64,000 nt of DNA from Brachybacterium faecium DSM 4810 (GTDB lineage Bacteria; Actinomycetota; Actinomycetes; Actinomycetales; Dermabacteraceae). The notes beneath the pieces were generated by a model, which did not search any database, was not told the DNA's origin, and saw only the letters and a list, made by a program, of their open reading frames with translations. Positions within the stretch are counted from its first letter, which is position 1, and each line of letters begins with the position of its first letter. This document shows, in pieces, positions 26,365-40,838 of this stretch. A program made the position numbers and the translations under genes. The DNA lies in contig CP001643.1 of assembly GCA_000023405.1 (NCBI GenBank), positions 1,054,001 to 1,118,000 of the forward strand, written 5' to 3'.

Positions 26365-26723
26365 CCGCCGCTGATCAGGCACCCGGTGCCGCCGCCCAGC
26401 CGCACGAGGTGGAGCGGGCCAAGCAGCTGCTGCAGGACGAGCGCCGCAGCATCGACAACATCGATGCCGCCCTCGTGCACCTCCTCGCCGAGCGCTTCTC
26501 CCACACCCAGCGGGTGGGGGTGCTCAAGGCCGAGCACGGGCTGCCGCCGGCGGATCCCTCGCGCGAGCGCGAGCAGATCGCCCATCTGCGCGAGCTGGCG
26601 GACCAGGCCGGCCTGGATCCCACCTTCGCCGAGGCGTTCCTGCGCTTCATCGTCACCGAGGTGATCCGTCATCACGAGCGGATCCGCGACGAGGGCTCCG
26701 ACGCCGGTCCCGACGCCGGCTGA
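26361..26723 (+). CDS. Chorismate mutase, AroQ type
   Basis: Chorismate mutase turns chorismate to prephenate on the way to Phe and Tyr. The 120-residue all-helical protein has the AroQ features: [36 protein letters not shown] and a final helix ending RHHERI. In Mycobacterium and relatives such small enzymes are weak alone and are activated by DAHP synthase. Its ATG overlaps the clpX stop, so it is translated with clpX. The last codons, including the stop, are repeated once just downstream. Confidence 0.92.
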
Positions 26724-26757
26724 GAGCGCACCGACGCCGGCCCCGACGCCGGCTGAG
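26698..26757 (+). repeat. 27-bp direct repeat at the 3' end of the chorismate mutase gene
   Basis: 26698-26724 and 26731-26757 differ at one base. Both encode DAGPDAG and a TGA stop; the second copy lies beyond the real stop. Confidence 0.85.
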
Positions 26758-26812
26758 CCGTCGGCGCGGCAGAACCGCCGTGGCGGTGAGCGCACGTTGG
26801 TAGCATGAGGCC

Positions 26813-29800
26813 ATGGCTCGCCTCACGCTCCTCGACTGGCCGGTGCTCCGGCAGCTCCGCGGGGCGGATCCCACAGGACGCGGCAGCGCCGTCACGTCCG
26901 CGAGGACCCGCAGCACGGTGCCGCGCACCAGCACGGCCGATGGCATGGCCGAGAGCATCTGCCCCTACTGCGCCGTCGGCTGCAGCCAGCGCATCTTCCA
27001 TCAGGACGGCAAGGTCATCCAGATCGAGGGGAACCCGGAATCCCCGGTTTCCCGCGGCCGGCTGTGCCCCAAGGGTGCGGCCAGCGAGCAGCTCGCGAAC
27101 TCCTACCTCCGCCAGACGACGGTGCGCTACCGCCGCCCGTACGCGACCGAGTGGGAGGACCTCGATCTCGACACGGCGATGGACATGATCGCCGACCGCT
27201 TCATCGAGGCCCGCCGGAAGCACTGGGAGGACGAGGACGAGCAGGGCCGCTCCCTCCGGCGCGCGATGGGCATCGCCAGCCTCGGCGGCGCGACCATCGA
27301 CAACGAGGAGAACTATCTGATCAAGAAGTTCTTCACCGCCGCGGGCGCGATCCAGATCGAGAACCAGGCCCGCATATGACACTCCGCCACGGTTCCCGGT
27401 CTGGGAGCCTCGTTCGGTCGTGGCGGTGCCACACAGTCCGTGCAGGACTTCGCCAACGCTGATCTCATCGTCATCGAGGGGTCCAACATGGCCGAGGCGC
27501 ACCCCGTCGCCTTCCAGTGGGTGACCGAGGCCCGGAAGCGCGGCGCCCGCGTCATCCATGTGGACCCGCGGTTCACACGCACCTCCGCGAACGCCGATCG
27601 GCACATCCCGATCCGCGCCGGCACGGACATCGTGCTGCTGGGCGGCGTGATCCGGCACGTGCTCGAGAACGAGCTGTACTTCGAGGAGTACCTGCGCACC
27701 TTCACCAACGCCTCGACGCTCATCTCCGAGCAGTACGCGGATGCCGAGGACCTCGACGGGCTGTTCTCCGGCTACGACCAGGAGACCAGCACCTACGAGA
27801 ACACCTCGTGGGCGTATGCGGGGGATCCGGAGCGGATCGCGCAGGGGCTGCCCGAACGCGATGAGACGCTGCAGCATCCACGGACCGTCTTCCAGATCCT
27901 GCGGCGCCACTACGCCCGCTACACCCCCGAGATGGTCCGGGACACCTGCGGCATCTCGCCGGAGGACTTCGCCTACCTGGCCACCTCGATCGCCGAGAAC
28001 TCGGGGCGCGAGCGGACCACGATGTTCGCCTACGCGCTGGGCTGGACCCAGCACCAGGGCGGGGCGCAGATGATCCGCACCGCGGGCGTCCTGCAGCTGC
28101 TCATGGGCAACATGGGCCGCCCGGGCGGCGGGATCATGGCGCTGCGCGGCCACGCGACCATCCAGGGCTCCACGGACATCCCCACGCTCTACCACATCCT
28201 GCCCGGCTACCTGCCGATGCCGAAGGTGGGCCAGGACGACTTCCACGAGTTCACCCGGGCGATCGGCAAGAAGGAGCAGAAGGGCTTCTGGGCCGACGCC
28301 GACATCTACACCATCAACCTGCTCAAGGCGTGGTGGGGAGAGCATGCGACGGCCGAGAACGACTGGGCCTACCACTACCTGCCCAGGCTGACCGGTGCGC
28401 ACGGCACCTATCAGACGGTCATGCGCATGCTCGAGGGCGGTGTCGACGGCTACTTCCTGTTCGGCCAGAACCCCGCGGTGGGCTCCGCCAACGGGCGCCT
28501 GCAGCGCCTGGGCCTGACGCACCTGAAATGGATGGTGGTGCGCGACTTCTACATGATCGAGTCCGCCACCTTCTGGAAGGACGGGCCGGAGATCGAATCC
28601 GGGGAGCTCACCCCGGAGCAGATCGGCACCGAGATGTTCTTCCTGCCGGCCGCGAACCATACCGAGAAGGCCGGCTCCTTCACCCAGACCCAGCGGATGG
28701 TGCAGTGGCGCGATCAGGCCGTGGAACCGCCGGACGACGCCCGCAGCGACCTCGAGTTCATGTACGAGCTCGGGCGCCGCATCCGCGAGAAGCTCCGCGG
28801 CTCGACCGACCCGCGGGACCGCCCGATCCTCGACCTCACCTGGGACTACCCGGTCAACGAGCGCGGGGAGCCGGACGCCGAGGCGGTGCTCGCCGAGATC
28901 AACGGCCGCCACCTCACCGGGGAGAGGGCCGGCCGCCCGCTGAACGCCTTCGCGGAGATGAAGGACGACGGCTCCACCAGCGGCGGCTGCTGGATCTACA
29001 CCGGCGTCTACGCGGACGGGATCAACCAGGCCCGGCGCCGCCGCCCCGGCTCGGAGCAGGGCGAGATCGCCCCGGACTGGGGCTGGGCCTGGCCCGCCAA
29101 CCGGCGGATCCTCTACAACCGCGCCTCGGCCGACGCCCGGGGCCGGCCCTGGAGCGAGCGCAAGAAGCTCGTGTGGTGGGACGAGGAGACCGGCCGCTGG
29201 ACCGGCGAGGACGTCCCCGACTTCCCGGTGACCAAGCGCCCCGATGATCCGGGGGACCCCTCCCAGGGCGGGGCCGCGGCCCTCGCGGGCACCGACGCGT
29301 TCACCATGCAGTCCGACGGGCGGGGCTGGCTGTTCGCACCCACCGGGCTGGTGGACGGACCGCTGCCCACCCATTACGAGTCGCCCGAGTCGACCATCCG
29401 CAACCCGCTGTACGAGCAGCAGTCCAACCCCACCCGGGTCACGTTCCGCGACGAGGACAACCTCAGCTCGGCCGGCGCGATGGGGACCGGCGGCGAGGTG
29501 TATCCGTACGTGTTCACCACCTACCGCATCACCGAGCACCACACCGCCGGCGGCATGAGCCGCTTCCTGCCGTACCTCTCGGAGCTGCAGCCGGAGATGT
29601 ACTGCGAGGTCTCCCCGGAGCTCGCCGAGGAGGTGGGTCTCGAGCCGTACGGCTGGGCGACCATCATCTCCGCCCGCAACGCGATCGAGGCGAAGGTGCT
29701 GATCACCGAACGCATGACCCCGCTGCGGATCGGGGAGCGCACCATCCACCAGATCGGCCTGCCGTTCCACTGGGGCCGGGGCGAGGAGGCGCTCATCCAG

Positions 29801-30109
29801 GGCGACGGCGCGAACGACCTGATCGGCATGAACCTCGATGCGAACACCCAGATCCAGAACAGCAAGAACAACTCGTGCACCCTCATCCCGGGCCGTCGCC
29901 CGCAGGGCGCCGGACGCAGGGAGCTGGTGCTGGCGTATCGTCGGCGGGCCGGACTGATCGCCTCCGAGCATCCGGCGGTCGACGGTGCCGAGGGCGCGCC
30001 CGGCGCGGGCCCCGCGGATTCCTTCGCCCCGCACGAGGTGCGCGGTCCGGGGGAGGCCACCGCGGCACCCACCGGTGAGGCCTCGATGAAGGAGATGGAC
30101 AACCGATGA
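26813..30109 (+). CDS. fdhA: Formate dehydrogenase, selenocysteine-containing catalytic subunit (alpha)
   Basis: Oxidises formate at a molybdo/tungsto-bis-pterin centre. The reading frame of 1099 codons is broken only by TGA at 27377-27379 (codon 189), in the context ENQARI-U-HSATVPGLG. This is exactly where FdnG/FdhF enzymes carry selenocysteine (ARVUHGPTV-like), and a SECIS hairpin follows at once. Residues about 48-80 hold the [4Fe-4S] site (CPYCAVGC and a Cys in RGRLCPKGA). Pterin-binding segments include GNMGRPGGGIMAL and GQNPAVGSANGRLQRLG, and the C-terminal molydopterin dinucleotide domain ends the protein. The stop overlaps the beta subunit start. The ATG at 26813 lacks a clear twin-arginine signal, so it may act in the cytoplasm. 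Confidence 0.96.
27377..27379 (+). other. In-frame TGA read as selenocysteine
   Basis: Codons on both sides continue the same conserved enzyme in the same frame, the residue aligns with the metal-binding Sec/Cys of formate dehydrogenases, and tRNA-Sec, selA, selB and selD lie within 10 kb. Confidence 0.95.
27384..27426 (+). promoter_or_regulatory. Bacterial SECIS element
   Basis: An RNA hairpin starting 4 nt after the TGA. The lower stem is CCGCCAC (27384-27390) with GTGGCGG (27420-27426). The upper stem is GGTTCCC (27391-27397) with GGGAGCC (27403-27409). The apical loop GGTCT (27398-27402) is the same as in the E. coli fdhF SECIS, where SelB binds it. Confidence 0.93.
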
Positions 30110-31107
30110 CGCTGCTGGCCGGACCCGAAGGACCCGCCGCGAACTCCGGCTGGGGCCATGACCACGAGCGCAAGGGCTTCTTCACCGACACCTCGATCTG
30201 CATCGGCTGCAAGGCCTGCGAGGTGGCGTGCAAGGAGTGGAACCGCAACCCGATCGACGGCAACCTCGAGATCCTCGGCTCCAGCTACGACAACACCGGT
30301 GAGCTGGGCGCCAACACGTGGCGCCACGTCGCCTTCGTCGAGCAGGGGCAGGAGCGCATCGAGCAGGCCCGGGAGTCGGGCCGGCGCCTGGTGAGCCTCG
30401 GGATGCCCGGCATCGGCCCGCGCTCCTCCGGTGCCCGCGGCGCGACCCCGGCGGGAGATCTCTCGCAGGCGGACCGCACCCCGCCGGACACCCCGGAGTT
30501 CCGCTGGCTGATGTCCTCGGACGTGTGCAAGCACTGCACCAACGCCGGCTGCCTCGACGTGTGTCCCACGGGCGCGATCTTCCGCTCGGAGCACGGCTCG
30601 GTGGTGGTCCAGGAGGACGTGTGCAACGGCTGCGGCACCTGCGTGAGCGCCTGCCCCTTCGGCGTGATCGAACGCCGTGACGACGGCACCGTCTCCCCGT
30701 ACGCCCACCGGGGCGACACGGTCGACCGGATGGGCACCGCCAGCAAGTGCACGCTGTGCTACGACCGCCTGGTCGAGGGGGAGGAGCCGGCCTGCTCGGC
30801 CACCTGCCCCACCCAGTCCATCACCTTCGGCGATCATCCCGATCTCACCGCCGCCGCGCACGAGCGGGTGCGGGACCTTCACGCGCGCGGCATGACCGAG
30901 GCGCGGCTGTACGGCGTGAACCCCAAGGACGGCGTGGGCGGCACCGGCTCGGTGTTCCTGCTGCTGGACGAGCCCGAGGTGTACGGGCTGCCGCCGGATC
31001 CGCAGGTGCCCACCGCCTCGCTGCCCCGCACCTACGCCCGCGCCGGGATCGCCGCGGCAGGCATGGTCGCCGCGGTCGCGCTCTCCTTCCTGGGAGCTCG
31101 TCGATGA
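30106..31107 (+). CDS. fdhB: Formate dehydrogenase iron-sulfur subunit (beta), four-cluster ferredoxin
   Basis: A 333-residue electron-transfer subunit of the DMSO reductase-family beta type. Four [4Fe-4S] motifs are visible: CIGCKACEVACKEWN, CKHCTNAGCLDVCPTGA, CNGCGTCVSACPFGV and CTLCYDR...CSATCP. A single hydrophobic segment at the C-terminus (about 312-329) may anchor it. An Arg/Gly/Ala insertion (about 85-125) sits between clusters one and two. It overlaps fdhA and the membrane subunit gene (ATGA both times), so three subunits are made in step and carry electrons from formate to the membrane. Confidence 0.95.
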   Translation: MTLLAGPEGPAANSGWGHDHERKGFFTDTSICIGCKACEVACKEWNRNPIDGNLEILGSSYDNTGELGANTWRHVAFVEQGQERIEQARESGRRLVSLGMPGIGPRSSGARGATPAGDLSQADRTPPDTPEFRWLMSSDVCKHCTNAGCLDVCPTGAIFRSEHGSVVVQEDVCNGCGTCVSACPFGVIERRDDGTVSPYAHRGDTVDRMGTASKCTLCYDRLVEGEEPACSATCPTQSITFGDHPDLTAAAHERVRDLHARGMTEARLYGVNPKDGVGGTGSVFLLLDEPEVYGLPPDPQVPTASLPRTYARAGIAAAGMVAAVALSFLGARR

Positions 31108-32219
31108 GCGTCACCGAGTTCGACGCGGACCGCCCGCCGGAGCAGCCGCGCCGCCGGGGTGGGAAGCGTCGCCGGCGCCGGCGCGACCTCTCCCAGGTGG
31201 GGATGGGGGACGGCTCGCGCGAGGGCGCGGTCGTCGAGGACGTCGAGATCGAGCGCGCCGACGAGTTCGACTCGTACTACGGCCGGCCCGTGGTCAAGGC
31301 CCCGCCGTGGAGGGCTCCGATCGCGGCGTACCTCTTCCTGGGCGGGGTCGCCGCCGGGTCCGGGATGCTGGCCTTCGGGGCGCAGTGCACCGGCCGGCCG
31401 CAGCTGCGCCGCGCCGCCCGGCTCACGGCGCTGGGCACCGCCGGCGTGGGCACGCTCGCGCTCATCGAGGACCTCGGCCGGCCCGAGCGCTTCCTCAACA
31501 TGATGCGGACGGTGAAGATCACCTCGCCCATGAGCATGGGCACGTGGATCGTCGGCGGCTTCGCGAGCGCCTCCGGGGTGCTGGCCGCTCTCGAGGTCGA
31601 TGAGATGACCGGGCGGCGCGTGCCGCTGGGGGCGCTGCGCTCCCTGCTCGGCGCCGCGGAGATCCCCGCCTCCCTCACCCAGGTCGCCCTCGCACCCGCC
31701 CTGGCCTCGTACACCGGTGCCCTGCTCGGCAACACCGTGGTCCCCACCTGGGAGGCCGGACGCGGGCACCTCTCCTACCTCTTCGTCTCCTCGGCGAGCC
31801 TCGCGGCGGGCGGCGCCGCGATGATCACCACCCCGGCGGCGGAGGCCGGACCGGCGCGGCTGCTGGCCACGGCCGGCGTGGCCGGGGACGTGGTCTCGAT
31901 GCACCGCATGAAGGCGTCGATGCACCCGCTCGAGGCCGAACCGCTGGAGACCGGGCGCCCCGGCACGATGCTGCGGTGGGCCGAGCGGCTCGCGATCGCC
32001 GGCGGGCTCGGCACCCTGCTCGGCGGCCGGAACCGGGTCGTCGCCGCCGCGAGCGGTGCGGCGCTGCTGACCGCCTCCGCCCTGACCCGCTTCGGCGTGC
32101 TGCACGCGGGCCTGGAATCCGTGAAGGACCCGCGGCGCGTGATCGAGCCGCAGAAGGCGCGCCTGGCCGCCCGCCGCGCCGCCGGCATCACCGACGACGC
32201 GATCACCACCGCCGGCTGA
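31104..32219 (+). CDS. NrfD/PsrC-like membrane subunit of the formate dehydrogenase
   Basis: A 371-residue polytopic protein of the NrfD family, which passes electrons from the iron-sulfur subunit to the quinone pool without haem. The N-terminal 70 residues are hydrophilic and arginine-rich (RRRGGKRRRRRRD), followed by eight or so helices. Family marks are FLGGVAAGSGMLA, LIEDLGRPERFLNMMRTVKITSPMS in outline, and MGTWIVGG. The ATG overlaps the fdhB stop. It replaces the cytochrome b gamma subunit found in E. coli FdnGHI, so the complex should reduce menaquinone directly (inference). Confidence 0.9.
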   Translation: MSVTEFDADRPPEQPRRRGGKRRRRRRDLSQVGMGDGSREGAVVEDVEIERADEFDSYYGRPVVKAPPWRAPIAAYLFLGGVAAGSGMLAFGAQCTGRPQLRRAARLTALGTAGVGTLALIEDLGRPERFLNMMRTVKITSPMSMGTWIVGGFASASGVLAALEVDEMTGRRVPLGALRSLLGAAEIPASLTQVALAPALASYTGALLGNTVVPTWEAGRGHLSYLFVSSASLAAGGAAMITTPAAEAGPARLLATAGVAGDVVSMHRMKASMHPLEAEPLETGRPGTMLRWAERLAIAGGLGTLLGGRNRVVAAASGAALLTASALTRFGVLHAGLESVKDPRRVIEPQKARLAARRAAGITDDAITTAG

Positions 32220-32285
32220 TCCACGCCTCCGGTCCCCGGAGCGCGGCCGTGATCGGTGCCGGTGCGCCGTGCGCGATGCGCCTGC

Positions 32286-33302
32286 TCAGCGCACCGTGAT
32301 GCCGGAGCCCTCGACCGTTTCGCCGATGATCGGGTAGCCGGGCACCTCGCCGACCACCAGCAGCCCGCCGGAGGTCTGGGCGTCGGCCAGCAGCAGCAGA
32401 TCCTCCTCGGTGATGCCTGCCCCGGCCTGCACCGCATGCCGCACCCACTCGAGGTTCCGGCGCGTGCCGCCGGAGACGAAGCCGTCGCGCAGCGCGTCGT
32501 CGGCCCCCTCGATGAGCGGCACCGCCGCGCGATCGATCACCATGCCCACGCCGGAGGCGCGCCCCATCTTGAACAGGTGCCCCAGCAGCCCGAACCCCGT
32601 CACGTCGGTCGCCGCCCGCGCCCCCGCCGCGAGCGCGGCCTTCGAGGCGTCGCGGTTCAGGGTGGTCATCGTGGCGATCGCCGCCTCGGAGACCTCGCCG
32701 GTGGACTTCATGCGGTTGTTCAGCAGCCCCACGCCGAGCGGCTTCGTCAGCGTGATCGGCAGCCCCGGAGCTGCGGCGTCGTTGCGCAGCAGACGCTCCG
32801 GAAGGGCGGTGCCGGTGACGGCCATGCCGTACTTCGGCTCCGGATCGTCGACCGAGTGACCGCCGATCACCGGCACGGCGGCCTCCTGCGCGATCGCGAG
32901 CCCTCCGGAGAGCACCTCCTGCAGCAGCTCCAGGGGCAGCACCCCGCGGGGCCAGCCCACCAGGTTGATCGCGACCACCGGGTCGCCGCCCATCGCGTAG
33001 ATGTCCGACAGGGCGTTCGCCGCGGCGATGCGTCCCCAGTCGAAGGCGTCATCCACCACCGGCGTGAAGAAGTCCGCGGTCGAGAGCACCGCGGTGTCCC
33101 CGGCCTCGCCGATCCGCACCGCGGCGGCGTCGTCCCCGTCCTCCAGGCCCACGATCACCTGCGGGTACTGCTGGCCGGAGAGCCCGGCGACCACCTCCTC
33201 GAGCTCGCCCGGCGGGATCTTCGAGGCGCAGCCCCCGCCGTGCGCCATGGTGGTCAGGCGGATCGAGGGCTGGGCCGCAGGACGGATCGGGGAGTCGCTC
33301 AT
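32286..33302 (-). CDS. selD: Selenide, water dikinase
   Basis: SelD makes selenophosphate from selenide and ATP, the selenium donor for Sec synthesis. The 338-residue product has the N-terminal active-site loop MAHGGGCASKIPP with Cys and Lys (E. coli: GCGCK), so it is the Cys form and does not itself need Sec. The ATP-binding segments (TADFFTPVVDDAFDWGRIAAANALSDIYAMGG, given by its ends) and TDVTGFGLLGHL are intact. It faces the fdh operon and is divergent from tRNA-Sec. Confidence 0.96.
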   Translation of the reverse strand: MSDSPIRPAAQPSIRLTTMAHGGGCASKIPPGELEEVVAGLSGQQYPQVIVGLEDGDDAAAVRIGEAGDTAVLSTADFFTPVVDDAFDWGRIAAANALSDIYAMGGDPVVAINLVGWPRGVLPLELLQEVLSGGLAIAQEAAVPVIGGHSVDDPEPKYGMAVTGTALPERLLRNDAAAPGLPITLTKPLGVGLLNNRMKSTGEVSEAAIATMTTLNRDASKAALAAGARAATDVTGFGLLGHLFKMGRASGVGMVIDRAAVPLIEGADDALRDGFVSGGTRRNLEWVRHAVQAGAGITEEDLLLLADAQTSGGLLVVGEVPGYPIIGETVEGSGITVR

Positions 33303-33420
33303 GGCCCGAGCCTATGACGGCGCCGCCCTCGGGGGCTGCGGCGGGTCGCCGCCGCACGAGAGTGTCGGCGCCATCGGGGGGCGCCGCCCAGCAGATCCAT
33401 ATCCTTGCTGGTCCTGCGGT

Positions 33421-33426
33421 GATAGT
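33421..33426 (+). promoter_or_regulatory. Possible -10 element of the tRNA-Sec gene
   Basis: GATAGT in the otherwise GC-rich gap, 10 nt before the tRNA. No convincing -35 is seen at 17 bp. A GGCGCC inverted repeat (33367-33385) lies upstream. Confidence 0.3.
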
Positions 33427-33435
33427 TTGGGCGGC

Positions 33436-33527
33436 GGAGGCGTACGTGTCCTGGTGGGCGCCCCGGTCTTCAAAACCGGTGAGACCGAGCATCTCGGTCT
33501 GGCGGGTTCGATTCCCGTCCGCCTCCG
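33436..33527 (+). tRNA. selC: tRNA-Sec, anticodon TCA
   Basis: A 92-nt tRNA with the bacterial selenocysteine form. Anticodon arm CCGGT-CTTCAAA-ACCGG has anticodon TCA. The D stem has six pairs (GTGTCC/GGGCGC) with a 4-nt TGGT loop. The long variable arm AGACCGAG-CAT-CTCGGTCT has eight pairs, the T loop is TTCGATT, and the discriminator is G. The acceptor pairs GGAGGCG with CGCCTCC; the eighth pair is T/C. CCG rather than CCA follows, so CCA is added enzymatically. Confidence 0.95.
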
Positions 33528-33660
33528 CCGGAATCTTCCCCGCGAGGACCGTCCCCGCCGCGCCGCTGCCGCCCGGCCGGGACGGGCCCCGCCCGTCGGC
33601 CCCCGAGGAGGTCCCCGTGCCCAAGACGGCGGAGGTCGGCACCACGAGCGGAGCGCGGCG

Positions 33661-34983
33661 ATGAGCGCCGACCCGCGCCGTCGGATCCCGCGCACCGACC
33701 ATCTCCTGGCGCATCCCGACGTGGCCGCCGCCGCCCAGGTGCTCAGCGAGCACGTGGTGCGCGGCATCGTCCGCGGCGCGCAGGAGCGCGCCCGGCGCGG
33801 CGAGATCGCCGCCGAGGCCGTGCTCGAGGAGATCCGCTCCGCCCTCGGCGGCCGCCCCGCCGGCTCCCTGCGACCGGTCCTCAACGCGACCGGGGTCATC
33901 GTGCACACGAACCTGGGCCGGGCGCCGCTGTCTCCTGCGGCGCGCGCGGCGCTGCAGGACGCCGCCGGCTACACCGACGTCGAATTCGACCTCGCTGCCG
34001 GCGTCCGCTCGCGGCGCGGCGCCGGCGCCCGCGCCGCGCTGCTCGCCGCCTGCCCCGAGGCCGAGGACGCCCTGATCGTCAACAACGGGGCGGCCGCCCT
34101 GGCGCTGGCCACCACCGCCCTCGCCGGGACGGACGAGGTGATCCTCAGCCGCGGCGAGCTCATCGAGATCGGCGCCGGCTTCCGCCTGCCCGAGCTCATC
34201 ACCTCTACCGGAGCGCGGCTGCGCGAGGTGGGCACCACCAACCGCACCCACCTCGCGGACTACACCGCGGCGCTCGGCCCCTCGACCGGCTGCGTGCTGA
34301 GGGTCCACACCAGCAACTACCGGGTCATCGGCTTCACCAGCGAGGTGGCGGTCGCCGAGCTCGCCGGGCCGTGCCGCGAGGCCGGGGTCCCGCTGGTGGC
34401 GGACCTCGGCAGCGGCCTGCTCGAGCCGGAGCCCCGGCTGCCCGCGGAGCCCGCTGCCGCCGCCGCCCTGCGCGACGGCGCGGACCTGGTGATCGCCAGC
34501 GGCGACAAGCTGCTCGGCGGCCCGCAGGCCGGGATCCTGCTGGGACGCGCCGAGATCATCGCGCGCCTCGCCCGGCACCCGCTGGCGCGGGCGATGCGCG
34601 CGGACAAGCTGACCCTCGCCGCACTCGAGGCCACCCTCCGCGGCCCCGTCCCGCCCGTCCTCGAGGCGCTGCGACTGGATCCGGACGCGCTGCGGGAGAG
34701 GACCGCGGCGCTCGCCGACCGGCTCGGAGGTCGCCTCGTCGCGCATGAGGGACGCGTCGGCGGCGGGGGAGGGGCCGAGGTGCCGCTGCCCGGCTGGGCG
34801 CTCGCCCTCGACCCCGCGCTCGCCGCACCGCTGCGCACCGGCGACCCCGCCGTGGTCGCCACGGTGCGCGACGACTGCTGCCTGCTGGATCTGCGCTGCG
34901 TGCCCGCCGAGGAGGACGCCCGCCTCGAGGCGGCGGTACGTACTGCCCGGACCCGCCTCGACCCCGCCGGCGCGCAGCGCTGA
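33661..34983 (+). CDS. selA: L-seryl-tRNA(Sec) selenium transferase
   Basis: SelA converts Ser-tRNA(Sec) to Sec-tRNA(Sec) with selenophosphate, using PLP. The 440-residue product has the N-terminal tRNA-binding domain (RRIPRTDHLLAHPDV), the NATGVIVHTNLGRAPLS signature, the PLP lysine in IASGDKLLGGPQAG, and VNNGAAALALATTAL. It lies 133 nt after tRNA-Sec and overlaps selB by one base (TGATG), so selA-selB are translated together. The ATG at 33661 has only a weak ribosome site but marks the start of family similarity. Confidence 0.96.
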   Translation: MSADPRRRIPRTDHLLAHPDVAAAAQVLSEHVVRGIVRGAQERARRGEIAAEAVLEEIRSALGGRPAGSLRPVLNATGVIVHTNLGRAPLSPAARAALQDAAGYTDVEFDLAAGVRSRRGAGARAALLAACPEAEDALIVNNGAAALALATTALAGTDEVILSRGELIEIGAGFRLPELITSTGARLREVGTTNRTHLADYTAALGPSTGCVLRVHTSNYRVIGFTSEVAVAELAGPCREAGVPLVADLGSGLLEPEPRLPAEPAAAAALRDGADLVIASGDKLLGGPQAGILLGRAEIIARLARHPLARAMRADKLTLAALEATLRGPVPPVLEALRLDPDALRERTAALADRLGGRLVAHEGRVGGGGGAEVPLPGWALALDPALAAPLRTGDPAVVATVRDDCCLLDLRCVPAEEDARLEAAVRTARTRLDPAGAQR

Positions 34984-36767
34984 TGCAGGTCGTCGCCACG
35001 GCCGGGCACGTCGACCACGGCAAGTCCACCCTGATCCGGGCCCTCACCGGGATCGAGCCGGACCGGTGGGCGGAGGAGACGCGGCGAGGGCTGACCATCG
35101 ACCTCGGCTTCGCCTGGACCACCCTGCCCTCGGGCCGTGCCGTGTCCTTCGTCGACGTGCCCGGCCATGAGCGGTTCCTCGGCAACATGCTCGCCGGCCT
35201 CGGCCCCGTCCCGATCGTCTGCTTCGTCGTCGCGGCCGACGAGGGCTGGCAGTCGCAGTCCGCCGATCATCGGGATGCGATCGCCGCGCTCGGCATCACG
35301 CAGGGCCTCCTCGTCGTCACCCGTGCGGACCTCGCCCCCGACCGGGTCGAGGAGGTGCTCGCCAAGGCCCGCACCGAGCTGGCCGGGACCGGTCTTGCCG
35401 AGGCACCCGCCGTGAGCGTCTCCGCGCTCACCGGCCAGGGGATGGGGCAGCTGCGGGAGGTGCTGGATGCGGTGGTCCTCGCCGCCCGCAGCCCCTCGCG
35501 CGAGGAGCCGGTGCGGCTGTGGGTGGACCGCTCCTTCAGCGTCTCCGGGGCGGGGACCGTCATCACCGGAACCCTCAGCGCGGGCACCCTCCGCGTGGGG
35601 GACGCGCTCGAGCGGAGGGGCGCCGGACCGGCACGACAGGTCCGGGTGCGCTCCCTGCAGAGCTGCGGCGAGGCGGTGGACGAGATCGGCCCCGTGAGCC
35701 GCGCCGCCGTGAACCTCCGCGGCGTGGACGCGGACGCGCTCACGCGCGGCGATGCGCTGCTGACCGTCGGCTCCTGGGCGACGGCGGACCTCCTGGACGT
35801 GCGGGCGACCTCTCCGGGCGCGTTCGCCGCGGCGCCCTCGGAGCTCGTCGTCCACGCCGGCACCGCCGCGGTGCCGGCCCGGGTCCGGCCGCTCGGCCCC
35901 GACCACGCCCGGCTCACCCTCGACCGCGCCCTGCCGGTGCGGGTCGGGGACCGGATGGTGCTGCGCGGCAGCGGGGCGCGGGTGGTGCACAGCGGCGCGC
36001 TCGTGCTCGACGTCGACCCGCCCGCGCTCACCCGTCGCGGTGATGCCGCCCGACGGGCCGCCGCGCTCACTGCGAGCGGGGGCGCCGGAGACGTGGCCGC
36101 CGAGGTGGCCCGGCGCGATGCGGTGCCCTCCGCGCAGCTGACCCGCCGGGGGATCGCCGTGCCCGAGGTGCTGCCCGCCGGGGTGCACCGGTGCGGGGCC
36201 CTGCTGGTCGCCGAGGCCGCGCTGAGCGCCTGGTCGACGCGCCTGCGGGACGCGGTCACCGCCGAGCACGATCAGCATCCGCTCTCCGCAGGGCTGCCCC
36301 GCAAGGCGGCCCTCGACCTGCTCGACGCCCCAGGAGAGGCCCTGCCCGAGCTGCTCGAGCGCGCCGACCTCGTCGAGCGGGACGGACGGGTCCTGGACCC
36401 CCTCCGCTCCGCGCAGCTCGGCCCGGCCGAGACCGCGATCGCCGCCCTCGAGCAGCATCTGGGGGAGGAGCCCTTCGCCTCCCCCTCCGCGGACCACCTC
36501 ACCGCGCTCGGCCTGGGCCCCGAAGAGCTCGCTGCCGCCGCCCGGCTCGGCCGGGTGCTGCGCCTGCCGGGCGAGGTGATCCTGCTACCCACCGCCCCCG
36601 CCCTCGCCATGCGGGAGCTGGCCCGGCTCCCGCAGCCCTTCACCACCTCCCAGGCACGCCAGGCGCTCGGCACCAGCCGCCGCATCGCGATCCCGCTGCT
36701 CGAGCATCTCGACGCCCGCGGCTGGACCCGTCGCCTGGATGCCGGGCACCGTCAGGTGGTGCGATGA
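34983..36767 (+). CDS. selB: Selenocysteine-specific elongation factor
   Basis: SelB is the EF-Tu-like GTPase that carries Sec-tRNA to UGA codons marked by a SECIS hairpin. The 594-residue product has the G motifs GHVDHGKSTL, DVPGHERF and the TRAD G4 variant, switch-I TRRGLTIDLGFAW, EF-Tu-like domains II and III, a SelB-specific domain IV with winged-helix repeats from about residue 370, and a C-terminal winged helix that binds SECIS RNA. A hairpin directly after the stop separates it from the convergent PH-domain gene. Confidence 0.96.
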   Translation: MQVVATAGHVDHGKSTLIRALTGIEPDRWAEETRRGLTIDLGFAWTTLPSGRAVSFVDVPGHERFLGNMLAGLGPVPIVCFVVAADEGWQSQSADHRDAIAALGITQGLLVVTRADLAPDRVEEVLAKARTELAGTGLAEAPAVSVSALTGQGMGQLREVLDAVVLAARSPSREEPVRLWVDRSFSVSGAGTVITGTLSAGTLRVGDALERRGAGPARQVRVRSLQSCGEAVDEIGPVSRAAVNLRGVDADALTRGDALLTVGSWATADLLDVRATSPGAFAAAPSELVVHAGTAAVPARVRPLGPDHARLTLDRALPVRVGDRMVLRGSGARVVHSGALVLDVDPPALTRRGDAARRAAALTASGGAGDVAAEVARRDAVPSAQLTRRGIAVPEVLPAGVHRCGALLVAEAALSAWSTRLRDAVTAEHDQHPLSAGLPRKAALDLLDAPGEALPELLERADLVERDGRVLDPLRSAQLGPAETAIAALEQHLGEEPFASPSADHLTALGLGPEELAAAARLGRVLRLPGEVILLPTAPALAMRELARLPQPFTTSQARQALGTSRRIAIPLLEHLDARGWTRRLDAGHRQVVR

Positions 36768-38141: not shown

Positions 38142-40838
38142 TCAGCCCTTGGCGCGCGGCTGCTTGACCGGCGGCTCGCCCAGCTCGACGTCCCGGGTGA
38201 GGATCTCCTCGCCCTGCCCGGTGACCAGCTCGAACTTCTCGATCCGGCCCAGCGCCGTGAGATCCGCGGAGGCGGCCTCCAGATAGGCCAGCGCCTCCTG
38301 CGGCGCCTCGATCGTCACCGAGAGGATCGGGGTCTTCTGGGACACCTTGGCATCGGACTTGATGCGCCGCAGCGTGATCGCCGCCTGCGCCACCGAGTCC
38401 ACCAGCGCCGCGTCCTGACCGGCAGCGGCCTCACGCAGCGGCGCCGCCTCCGGCCAGGGCTGGGTGTGCACGCTGCCCTCGCGCCACCACGACCAGACCT
38501 CCTCGGTCGCGAAGACGATCACCGGCGCGAACAGCCGCAGCAGCACCTCGAGCGCGATCGCGAGCGCCGCCCGGGCCGAGGCGGCCCCGACCTCGCCATC
38601 GGGAGAGTTGCCGTGGGCGCGCTCCTTGACCAGCTCGATGTAGTCGTCGCAGAACGCCCAGAAGAACGGCTCGGCCACCTCGAGGCTGCGGGCATAGTCC
38701 ATCTCGTCGAAGGCGGCGGTGGACTGCTCGACCACGTCGGCCAGCTGCGCGAGCAGCGCCCGGTCCAGCGGATCGGTGACCACGGCGGGGTCCGCGGCCA
38801 GGCGGCCCGACGGGTCCGCCGGGGCCTCGCCGAAGCCGAGCGCGAACTTCGAGGCGTTGAGGATCTTGATCGCCAGGCGGCGGCCGATCTTCATCTGCCC
38901 CTCGTCGAAGGCGGTGTCCACGCCCTGGCGGGCCCGGCCCGCCCAGTAGCGCACCCCGTCGGAGCCGTGCTGCTGGAGCAGGCCCAGCGGGGTGACCACA
39001 TTGCCCTTCGACTTCGACATCTTCTTGCGGTCCGGATCGAGGATCCAGCCGTTGATCGAGGCGTGCTTCCAGGGCAGCGAATCCTGCTGCAGATGCGAGC
39101 GCACGATCGTGGAGAACAGCCAGGTGCGGATGATGTCGTGGCCCTGCGGGCGCAGGTCCATCGGGTACACCTTCGAGAACAGCTCGCCGTCGTCCTGGGC
39201 GTTCCAGCCGCCCGCGAGCTGCGGGGTGAGAGAGGAGGTGGCCCAGGTGTCGAGGATGTCCGGATCGGCGACGAAGCCCCCGGGCTGGTCGCGCTGCTCC
39301 TCGGTGAATCCTGCCGGCACATCGATCGTGGGATCCACGGGCAGGTCCTCGACCGCAGGGGTGAGCACCGTGGAGTAGTCGGTCTCGCCATCGGCGCCCA
39401 CGCCGTACCAGACGGGGAAGGGCACGCCGTAGAAGCGCTGGCGCGAGATCAGCCAGTCGCCGGCCAGGCCCTCCACCCAGTTGCGGTAGCGGGACTCCAT
39501 GTAGGCCGGGTGCCAGGTCATCTCGGCCCCGCGGGCGATCAGCGCGTCACGCAGCCCGCCCTCGGACTGGTCGCGGCCGCCGTTGGTGAGATACCACTGC
39601 CGCGAGGTGACGAACTCGAGCGGCTTGTCGCCGTTCTCGTAGAACTTCACCGGATGGGTGATCTTCTCCGGCTCGCCCACGAGGTCGCCGGACTCGGTGA
39701 CCATCTCCACCACGCGCTTCTGCGCGCTGAACACGGTCAGGCCCACCAGCTCGGCGTAGGCGGCCTGCCCCTCGGCCGTGGTGATCCACGGCGCCTCGGG
39801 CAGGAAGCGGCCGTCGCGCCCCACCACGGAGCGGGTGGGCAGCTCGAGCTCACGCCACCAGGTGACGTCGTTGGAGTCGCCGAAGGTGCAGATCATGGCG
39901 ATGCCGGCGCCCTTGTCGGGCTGGGCCAGCGGATGCGCCATCACCGGCACCTCGACCCCGAACAGCGGGGAGGTGACGGTGGTGCCGAACAGCTCCTGGT
40001 AGCGCTCGTCCTCGGGGTGGGCCACGAGCGCCACACATGCCGGCAGCAGCTCGGGGCGGGTGGTCTCGATGTACACGGTGGCGTCTGCGCCGTCGGCCGC
40101 GTTCGTGCGGGTGAAGCCGATGCGGTGGTACGCGCCGTCCCGCTCGCGATCCTCCTGCTCGGCCTGCGCGACCGCGGTGCGATAGGTGACGTCCCACATG
40201 GTGGGAGCCTCGGCCTGGTAGGCCTGGCCCTTGGCGAGGTTCTCGAGGAAGGCGCGCTGGGAGGTGGCGCGGGAGCGGGCATCGATGGTCTGGTAGCTGT
40301 GGTTCCAGTCCACCGAGAGGCCCAGCGTGCGGAAGACCTCCTCGAACGACTTCTCGTCGAGCGTGGTCAGCTGCTCGCACAGCTCGATGAAGTTCCGGCG
40401 CGAGATCGGCAGCTGGTTCGCGGCCTTCGAGGACTTGTTCGAGCCGCCCTCCTGCGGGGGCGTGAAGTCCGGGTCGTAGGGCAGCGAGGGATCGCAGCGC
40501 ACCCCGTAATAGTTCTGGGCGCGGCGCTCGGTGGGCAGGCCGTTGTCGTCCCAGCCCAACGGGTAGAAGCAGTTCATGCCCCGCATGCGCTGGTAGCGCA
40601 CGATCATGTCGGCCTGCGAGTAGCCGAAGACGTGACCGATGTGCAGGGAGCCGGAGGCGGTGGGCGGCGGGGTGTCCACGCTGAAGACCTGGTCACGGGT
40701 GGTCTCCGGGTCGAAGGCGTACAGCTCCTGCGCACTCCATACGCCGTCCCACTTCTCCTCCAGACCCTCGAGGGAGGGGCGATCGGGGAGGGCGGAGCCG
40801 GTGTCGGGGCGGGATGCGGTATCGGTCATGCGGGCCAT
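38142..40838 (-). CDS. valS: Valine--tRNA ligase (archaeal-like ValS type)
   Basis: ValRS charges tRNA-Val and edits Thr-tRNA-Val. The 898-residue class Ia synthetase has the HIGH motif in SGSLHIGHVFGYSQ, the editing CP1 domain (YIETTRPELLPACVAL), KKMSKSKGNVV and the anticodon-binding helical domain. The DDNGLPTERRAQN segment and the overall pattern match the archaeal-like ValS of actinobacteria. A C-terminal tail of about 100 residues replaces the usual coiled coil. Two start codons are possible, 40838 (MARMTD) and 40829 (MTDTAS); a weak GGAA lies before both. Confidence 0.96.
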   Translation of the reverse strand: MARMTDTASRPDTGSALPDRPSLEGLEEKWDGVWSAQELYAFDPETTRDQVFSVDTPPPTASGSLHIGHVFGYSQADMIVRYQRMRGMNCFYPLGWDDNGLPTERRAQNYYGVRCDPSLPYDPDFTPPQEGGSNKSSKAANQLPISRRNFIELCEQLTTLDEKSFEEVFRTLGLSVDWNHSYQTIDARSRATSQRAFLENLAKGQAYQAEAPTMWDVTYRTAVAQAEQEDRERDGAYHRIGFTRTNAADGADATVYIETTRPELLPACVALVAHPEDERYQELFGTTVTSPLFGVEVPVMAHPLAQPDKGAGIAMICTFGDSNDVTWWRELELPTRSVVGRDGRFLPEAPWITTAEGQAAYAELVGLTVFSAQKRVVEMVTESGDLVGEPEKITHPVKFYENGDKPLEFVTSRQWYLTNGGRDQSEGGLRDALIARGAEMTWHPAYMESRYRNWVEGLAGDWLISRQRFYGVPFPVWYGVGADGETDYSTVLTPAVEDLPVDPTIDVPAGFTEEQRDQPGGFVADPDILDTWATSSLTPQLAGGWNAQDDGELFSKVYPMDLRPQGHDIIRTWLFSTIVRSHLQQDSLPWKHASINGWILDPDRKKMSKSKGNVVTPLGLLQQHGSDGVRYWAGRARQGVDTAFDEGQMKIGRRLAIKILNASKFALGFGEAPADPSGRLAADPAVVTDPLDRALLAQLADVVEQSTAAFDEMDYARSLEVAEPFFWAFCDDYIELVKERAHGNSPDGEVGAASARAALAIALEVLLRLFAPVIVFATEEVWSWWREGSVHTQPWPEAAPLREAAAGQDAALVDSVAQAAITLRRIKSDAKVSQKTPILSVTIEAPQEALAYLEAASADLTALGRIEKFELVTGQGEEILTRDVELGEPPVKQPRAKG

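Follow-up and report, generated by a model that had tools for sequence, protein, structure and literature searches.

We analysed a 64-kb stretch of DNA (hereafter, the window; positions 1054001-1118000 of the 3.61-Mb genome of Brachybacterium faecium DSM 4810) that carries fdhA, the gene for the alpha subunit of a formate dehydrogenase (FDH), whose reading frame contains a TGA at codon 189. The reading that we favour, at a probability of about 97% and by sequence comparison, is that the region is a Brachybacterium selenoprotein gene cluster, in which the TGA would be recoded as selenocysteine (Sec) through a downstream Sec insertion sequence (SECIS) hairpin and the adjoining sel genes. The TGA, the protein family, the hairpin with its covariation and the complete gene set are all present in the sequence; Sec insertion itself, the steps assigned to SelA, SelB and SelD, the metal, and the path and direction of the electrons are expected from established knowledge of these families. 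A first-pass annotation of the window had proposed that a SECIS recodes TGA 189 in a Sec FDH, and the comparative results given below argue for this core proposal.

The fdhA reading frame and codon 189

The TGA lies in frame at codon 189, as the first-pass annotation had stated, and the frame is otherwise open. With the TGA read as Sec, FdhA scored 1812.5 bits against the NCBIfam family NF041513 (formate_DH_Act; cut-off 1400) and 925 bits against TIGR01553 (cut-off 814.2), and it contained the Pfam molybdopterin oxidoreductase domains PF00384, PF04879 and PF01568. The PF00384 match was one uninterrupted stretch, from residue 120 to residue 581, spanning codon 189. It had also been claimed that conserved FDH sequence flanks the TGA in the same frame, and NF041513 indeed matched on both sides of the codon, the residues just after it being conserved. 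Over nearly its whole length FdhA is like the alpha subunits of E. coli FDH-N (FdnG; PDB 1kqf) and of PDB 1h0h, and its residue 189 aligns in both with a non-standard residue (X), which is Sec in those enzymes.

A mechanical list of open reading frames (ORFs) cuts fdhA in two, at 26813-27379 (188 aa) and at 27440-30109 (889 aa, GTG start). The prediction that automated annotation would split the gene thus holds for plain ORF calling, but for such genes NCBIfam offers NF041513, a curated exception-type model, whose match extends to either side of the TGA. The genome encodes one full-length FDH of this family, the other match being partial (26.5 bits) and stop-free. An antisense ORF of 1120 aa on the minus strand (26672-30034) covers nearly the whole of fdhA and is most likely a by-product of codon usage at high GC.

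Conservation of the stop codon among related loci

Among the best 80 of 133 confirmed related loci, the codon aligned to 189 was TGA in 68, TAG in one and Cys (TGC or TGT) in 11, and the TGA-bearing loci span two phyla. The closest relatives on the FDH tree are Brachybacterium, with FdhA identities of up to 89%, and TGA stands in every one of the 18 loci of this clade, of which 17 are named Brachybacterium and the last, L013, is an Actinomycetales bin that the tree groups with them. A Cys codon in relatives lacking a conserved SECIS had been named by the first-pass annotation as a finding that would speak against Sec; such codons occur in the 11 loci above, where the hairpin is missing, but none of the 18 loci of the Brachybacterium clade has one. 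The tree is a quick LG+G4 tree made with no mixture and no bootstrap, with a long-branch warning on one join (L068 with L079), and we used it for clade placement, for counting Sec/Cys changes and for counting pair changes. Two changes are needed to explain the Cys state on it, and the Cys rows fall in two separate starred clades, one of Actinomyces and the other of Streptosporangium, Nonomuraea, Paenarthrobacter and others. Genus-wide, 37 of 38 genomes had an FDH over the NF041513 cut-off, all with a TGA somewhere in the frame, its presence there, rather than its exact place, being what was scored.

To estimate selection, fdhA of the window was compared without gaps with seven of the 18 clade loci, ones with a gene of equal length. 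The ratio of nonsynonymous to synonymous substitution rates (dN/dS) was 0.18-0.32 before the TGA and, in six of the seven comparisons, 0.14-0.20 after it, which indicates purifying selection on either side; the region behind the TGA is therefore constrained at the protein level. The seventh locus, L019 (Brachybacterium sp. SGAir0954), gave 0.55 after the TGA, well above the other six, possibly reflecting shifted stretches or relaxed selection.

Several related loci deserve mention in their own right. In Blastococcus sp. TF02A-30, TAG replaces TGA at the Sec site (L052:10553-10555) and the SECIS loop codon GGT is retained, which fits the UAG-Sec usage described for Geodermatophilaceae (PMC5330540). 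Acidobacteriota metagenome bins (L069-L075, L080, L082, L084, L086-L088) also encode members of this Sec FDH family, with a hairpin of like kind; on the tree these loci fall beside Solirubrobacter and its relatives, and they may represent inter-phylum transfer or misbinned contigs. Within the genus, the FDH match at G003:C1:2854725-2857843 shifts frame near the C-terminus and shows further TGA inside, which is a frameshift or an assembly error.

A SECIS hairpin downstream of the TGA

The first-pass annotation placed a SECIS hairpin with a GGTCT loop 4 nt after the TGA, and both the coordinates and the loop proved correct. The continuous stem starts at that distance (27384 with 27426), and the predicted fold adds an isolated pair of 27382 with 27428. 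We number the columns from the UGA. Alignment A1 contains 57 of the 70 rows that have a stop codon (the row of the window and those of 69 loci), with 55 distinct sequences, the 13 rows left out being by eye identical to kept rows over 54 columns. Alignment A3 was drawn from the 50 TGA rows that fall beyond the Brachybacterium clade and contains 41 of them, with the TAG row excluded; of the nine TGA rows left out, L025 and L041 differ from those retained.

The apical stem (columns 15-21 with 27-33) was paired in 96.6% of the cells of A1. For the whole structure, both sides had changed in 33 cells as compared with a shuffled mean of 9.7, and none of 500 shuffles reached 33; when the partners were slid by 1 to 3 columns, all five pairing measures fell. 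The signal of the apical stem persisted without the genus (A3), with 26 such cells against 3.9 in shuffles and 0/500 shuffles as high. Changes on both sides were seen at the apical pairs 15-33, 16-32, 18-30 and 21-27. The most variable pair is 18-30, which joins the wobble base of a Val codon to that of a Gly codon and which, over the 70 rows, was U-A in 39, C-G in 12, U-G in 10, G-C in 6, G-U in 1 and an unpaired G-G in 2. The shuffle statistics leave the kinship among the sequences in place, and this is answered by the repeated changes at pair 18-30, for which at least 12 state changes are needed on the FDH tree (six states, including the unpaired G-G).

The loop codon (columns 22-24; Gly or Ser) was spelled GGT or AGT in every stop-codon gene (70/70), whereas four nearby Gly codons, taken as a control, used all or most endings in the same genes. 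Columns 17, 23 and 24 (U, G and U) were invariant in A1, column 17 being fixed by the protein as well, where it is the middle base of a codon for Val or Ile. In the 11 Cys homologues, by comparison, the loop codon never ended in T (0/11), only 57.1% of the cells were paired, which is under their own shuffle mean, and a hairpin-type consensus fold was absent.

A model built with the genus left out placed the site at 78.5 bits (E-value 4.5e-14), and the runner-up in the 64-kb window scored 17.6 bits. In a genome-wide search for a second SECIS of the same kind, with other SECIS types lying outside the search, the best other match reached only 22.2 bits (E-value 0.65); further selenoproteins in this genome are possible.

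The neighbouring fdh and sel genes

A complete Sec-decoding set (selA, selB, selC and selD) lies less than 7 kb downstream of fdhA, with all four members over their cut-offs (Table 1). The tRNA-Sec is the sole match over the cut-off in the genome, and SelB carries a C-terminal winged helix (PF09107, SelB-wing_3, 58.2 bits). Translation of selA probably begins with the ATG at 33661. No internal stop was found in selD, which runs opposite to its neighbours: its end faces nrfD 66 nt away, and its start diverges from the tRNA-Sec gene with 133 nt between them (32219-33436). A gene for the FDH accessory protein FdhD lies in another part of the genome (G000:C1:3391030-3391803). The GC content over 22-42 kb of the window was 69-77%, with its peak at the sel genes.

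Table 1 Features of the fdh-sel cluster (positions in the window).
Feature	Position	Strand	Description	Evidence
fdhA	26813..30109	+	formate dehydrogenase alpha subunit, 1098 residues, Sec expected at 189	
TGA, Sec codon 189	27377..27379	+	single internal stop of frame 26813-30109	
SECIS hairpin	27384..27426	+	lower stem 27384-27390/27420-27426; apical stem 27391-27397/27403-27409	
SECIS apical loop	27398..27402	+	GGUCU; G23 U24 = 27399-27400; U17 = 27393	
fdhB	30106..31107	+	iron-sulfur (beta) subunit, 333 aa	Fer4_11 76.6 bits
nrfD	31104..32219	+	NrfD-type membrane subunit, 371 aa; 4-nt overlap with fdhB	PF03916 68.7 bits (cut-off 25.8)
selD	32286..33302	-	selenide water dikinase, 338 aa	TIGR00476 367.9 bits (cut-off 125)
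selC	33436..33529	+	tRNA-Sec, anticodon UCA, 94 nt	ARAGORN; RF01852 81.5 bits (cut-off 47)
selA	33661..34983	+	L-seryl-tRNA(Sec) selenium transferase	TIGR00474 407.1 bits (cut-off 267.9), frame 33637-34980
selB	34983..36767	+	Sec-specific elongation factor, 594 aa	TIGR00475 264.3 bits (cut-off 242.25)

Alternative explanations and evidence against recoding

We considered three other explanations of the TGA. If the two ORFs of the mechanical list were translated as two separate proteins, the N-terminal one would have 188 aa and the C-terminal one 889 aa from the GTG at 27440. Both ORFs do exist mechanically, and partial termination is described as normal at the E. coli Sec UGA, 30-40% being given as the extent of recoding in vivo (PMC4513850). 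The cut, however, would fall within the single PF00384 match, and residues between the TGA and the GTG are conserved, so that a pair of independent products is very improbable. That the gene is dying and the TGA is a nonsense mutation, or else a sequencing error, would agree with there being one in-frame stop in a frame that is open elsewhere, but it would leave unexplained why TGA stands at the aligned codon in most of the related loci of two phyla, why dN/dS stays under 1 both before and after this codon, why the SECIS covaries, and why selA, selB, selD and tRNA-Sec are present in 13 of 13 Brachybacterium loci of at least 13 kb; we regard this explanation as extremely improbable. A genome-wide reassignment of TGA to Trp, or its suppression as Trp, either of which would mean that the site is not Sec, is a practically negligible possibility. 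We found no point in support of it, while fdhA itself terminates with TGA (30107-30109), the genome has a tRNA-Sec whose UCA anticodon matches the codon, and the 11 stop-free loci have Cys rather than Trp at the site.

Recoding of TGA 189 as Sec remains our favoured explanation, and the following observations weigh against it. Folding energy by itself is weak evidence for a SECIS: the minimum free energy predicted for the hairpin was -24.2 kcal/mol with a z-score of -1.25, and 24 of 200 shuffles folded equally well or better. The number of further pair types was no higher than in shuffles (87/500 as high in A1 and 296/500 without the genus), unlike the other four pairing measures, which do exceed the shuffles. 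Pair 15-33 was broken in 9 of the 55 distinct sequences. The lower stem, though formed in the predicted fold of this genome, was paired in just 77.4% of the A1 cells; it is missing from the RNAalifold consensus, which consists of the apical stem alone, and we rejected it as a conserved helix. A search with a bacterial SECIS model, which the first-pass annotation had suggested as a check, succeeded in part: the Rfam model SECIS_3 (RF01989) gave its top match in 27300-27500 at the site, with an E-value of 6.6e-5, but the score of 29.1 bits is under the gathering cut-off of 63, which is why a default Rfam scan of the window reports no SECIS. Two other genomes of the class are also at odds with recoding. 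One with a Sec-site TGA (G056) had selA and selB over the cut-offs and no detected tRNA-Sec. The other (G238; locus L092), rated 100% complete, has a Sec-site TGA and the usual SECIS loop, and tRNA-Sec, selA and selB over the cut-offs were not found in it. Its contig ends in nrfD, after which sel genes often come, so the missing sel genes are probably an assembly gap; it is possible that this is a real orphan Sec FDH.

Structure of the hairpin in comparison with the E. coli SECIS

From its sequence, the hairpin would function like SECIS_3 but is not to be filed as a member of RF01989. It shares with the E. coli fdhF-type SECIS the U, G and U at 17, 23 and 24 from the UGA; U17 and G23 are described as SelB binding sites, with U24 joining them as non-varying in E. 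coli (PMC8659212). U17 is described there as bulged (PMC8659212). The aligned structure modelled here has instead an apical stem of seven pairs in which U17 is opposite a base: it faces position 31, and among the 55 distinct sequences the combination was U-A in 29, U-G in 23 and not paired in 3. This facing base in the present FDH family, as against the bulged U17 of E. coli (PMC8659212), is the one structural detail in which the two may differ. One might go further and propose that the SECIS of this family, in Actinomycetota and Acidobacteriota, forms a structural class of its own that Rfam covers poorly, with a continuous 7-bp apical helix, a paired U17, an [A/G]-G-U-[C/U]-U loop and a SelB RNA-binding domain shifted accordingly; we hold this to be a tentative idea and rather unlikely.

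Proposed pathway and comparison with known systems

In the pathway that we propose by analogy with known systems, SelD would produce selenophosphate and SelA would turn seryl-tRNA(Sec) into Sec-tRNA(Sec). SelB-GTP would bind the hairpin after TGA 189 via the G23/U24 loop and the U17 region and bring Sec-tRNA to the ribosome, and the TGA would then be read as Sec to give the full FdhA of 1098 residues. In the molybdopterin active site, the metal (Mo or W) is expected to have Sec 189 as its ligand. Formate would be oxidised, probably on the cytoplasmic side (by eye, no twin-arginine signal was seen), and the electrons would pass from FdhB to the NrfD-type membrane subunit and probably on to menaquinone.

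The complex differs from E. coli FdnGHI in its membrane subunit, which is a cytochrome b in FdnGHI and NrfD-type here, and in the twin-arginine signal that we did not see by eye. Compared with the family models of an FdnGHI-type FDH-N complex, FdhB scored 162.1 bits against the FDH-beta equivalog TIGR01582, under its cut-off of 334.7, and the third gene matched NrfD (PF03916) only.

The cluster is an ordinary example of a known bacterial arrangement, for which NCBIfam has a dedicated family and similar clusters have been published; we found no feature that sets the Brachybacterium gene apart from NF041513. In Corynebacterium aurimucosum ATCC 700975, an fdnG-fdxH region with an internal UGA is described as clustered with selA, selB, selC and selD (PMC2830990), and it thus shares with the window a UGA-containing FDH gene beside selABCD. 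C. aurimucosum belongs to another family and is likened here by its published description; the Corynebacterium in our sample is C. bouchesdurhonense (L049, 62% identity). Actinomycetospora chiangmaiensis DSM 45062 is likewise an actinomycete with Sec FDH: FDH1-FDH3 were deduced to be Sec FDHs from the genome, SelA and SelB are given under FDH1, and formate removal was shown to be selenium-dependent (PMC7176365). Those three systems compare with one full-length FDH of the NF041513 family found in the present genome. More broadly, FdhA tops the bacterial selenoproteins in one survey (103), in which Sec-to-Cys replacement concerned mostly FdhA and SelD (PMC1794560), and another reports Sec users among aerobic (40.4%) and anaerobic (35.8%) bacteria alike (PMC5029168). 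A search by title among openly licensed literature found no paper on selenocysteine in Brachybacterium, which carries little weight.

The cluster contributes a further case rather than a new principle. Its value lies in a fully equipped Sec cluster in a GC-rich genus, in which naive gene calling cuts the enzyme into two pieces, and in the natural comparison provided by the two Cys clades without a hairpin and by a Brachybacterium genome without the whole module at a conserved site.

Distribution of the module in the genus and the class

That genome (G007, 99% complete) was the sole one of the genus without an FDH, and neither tRNA-Sec nor selB over the cut-off, nor selA, was found in it. Its flanks are conserved (L099, L096): the distance from clpX and the chorismate mutase gene to the aminoacyl-tRNA synthetase gene (38142-40838 in the window), genes that we identified by eye without a family search, is about 1.3 kb, as compared with 11.4 kb in the window. 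The fdh-sel module is thus present or absent as a unit. tRNA-Sec was over the cut-off in 35 of the 38 genomes of the genus; in G026 and G032, which are 84-88% complete, it was not, and selA was present. Within the DNA of the 80 named loci, selA was found in 35 of the 68 TGA loci, in 0 of 1 TAG locus and in 0 of 11 Cys loci. Eleven TGA loci of at least 20 kb had no selA in reach, so that for many relatives the sel genes are either sited elsewhere or escaped detection.

For the class to which Brachybacterium belongs, we used 296 genomes drawn evenly, with a completeness of at least 90 requested, and searched them for tRNA-Sec by Infernal with stricter filters (E-values up to 1e-12). tRNA-Sec was over the cut-off in 79 of them, so Sec use in the class is not rare; together with the count for the genus, this overturns the statement of the first-pass annotation that Sec enzymes are rare in actinobacteria. 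An FDH of the NF041513 family was found in 85 of the 296 genomes (84 over the cut-off). Seventy genomes were classed as having an FDH with one TGA, taken as the Sec codon, and 68 of these had tRNA-Sec; this class was assigned by stop count, except for G296, G238, G056, G222, G328 and the window, which were read at the codon, and G151, with one copy with and one without TGA, was counted in it. We rejected G296 (L091) as a case of TGA-FDH without tRNA-Sec, as it has TGC at the Sec site and a stop 685 codons on in the FDH frame; this may be a gene in decay or reflect an error in the sequence.

Nine genomes of the class had tRNA-Sec without an FDH of this family. Among the 15 remaining FDH genomes, two had tRNA-Sec, G222 (L094) and G328 (L095). 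Both have a Cys FDH alongside the tRNA-Sec and a SelB match over the cut-off, and they probably use Sec in another protein.

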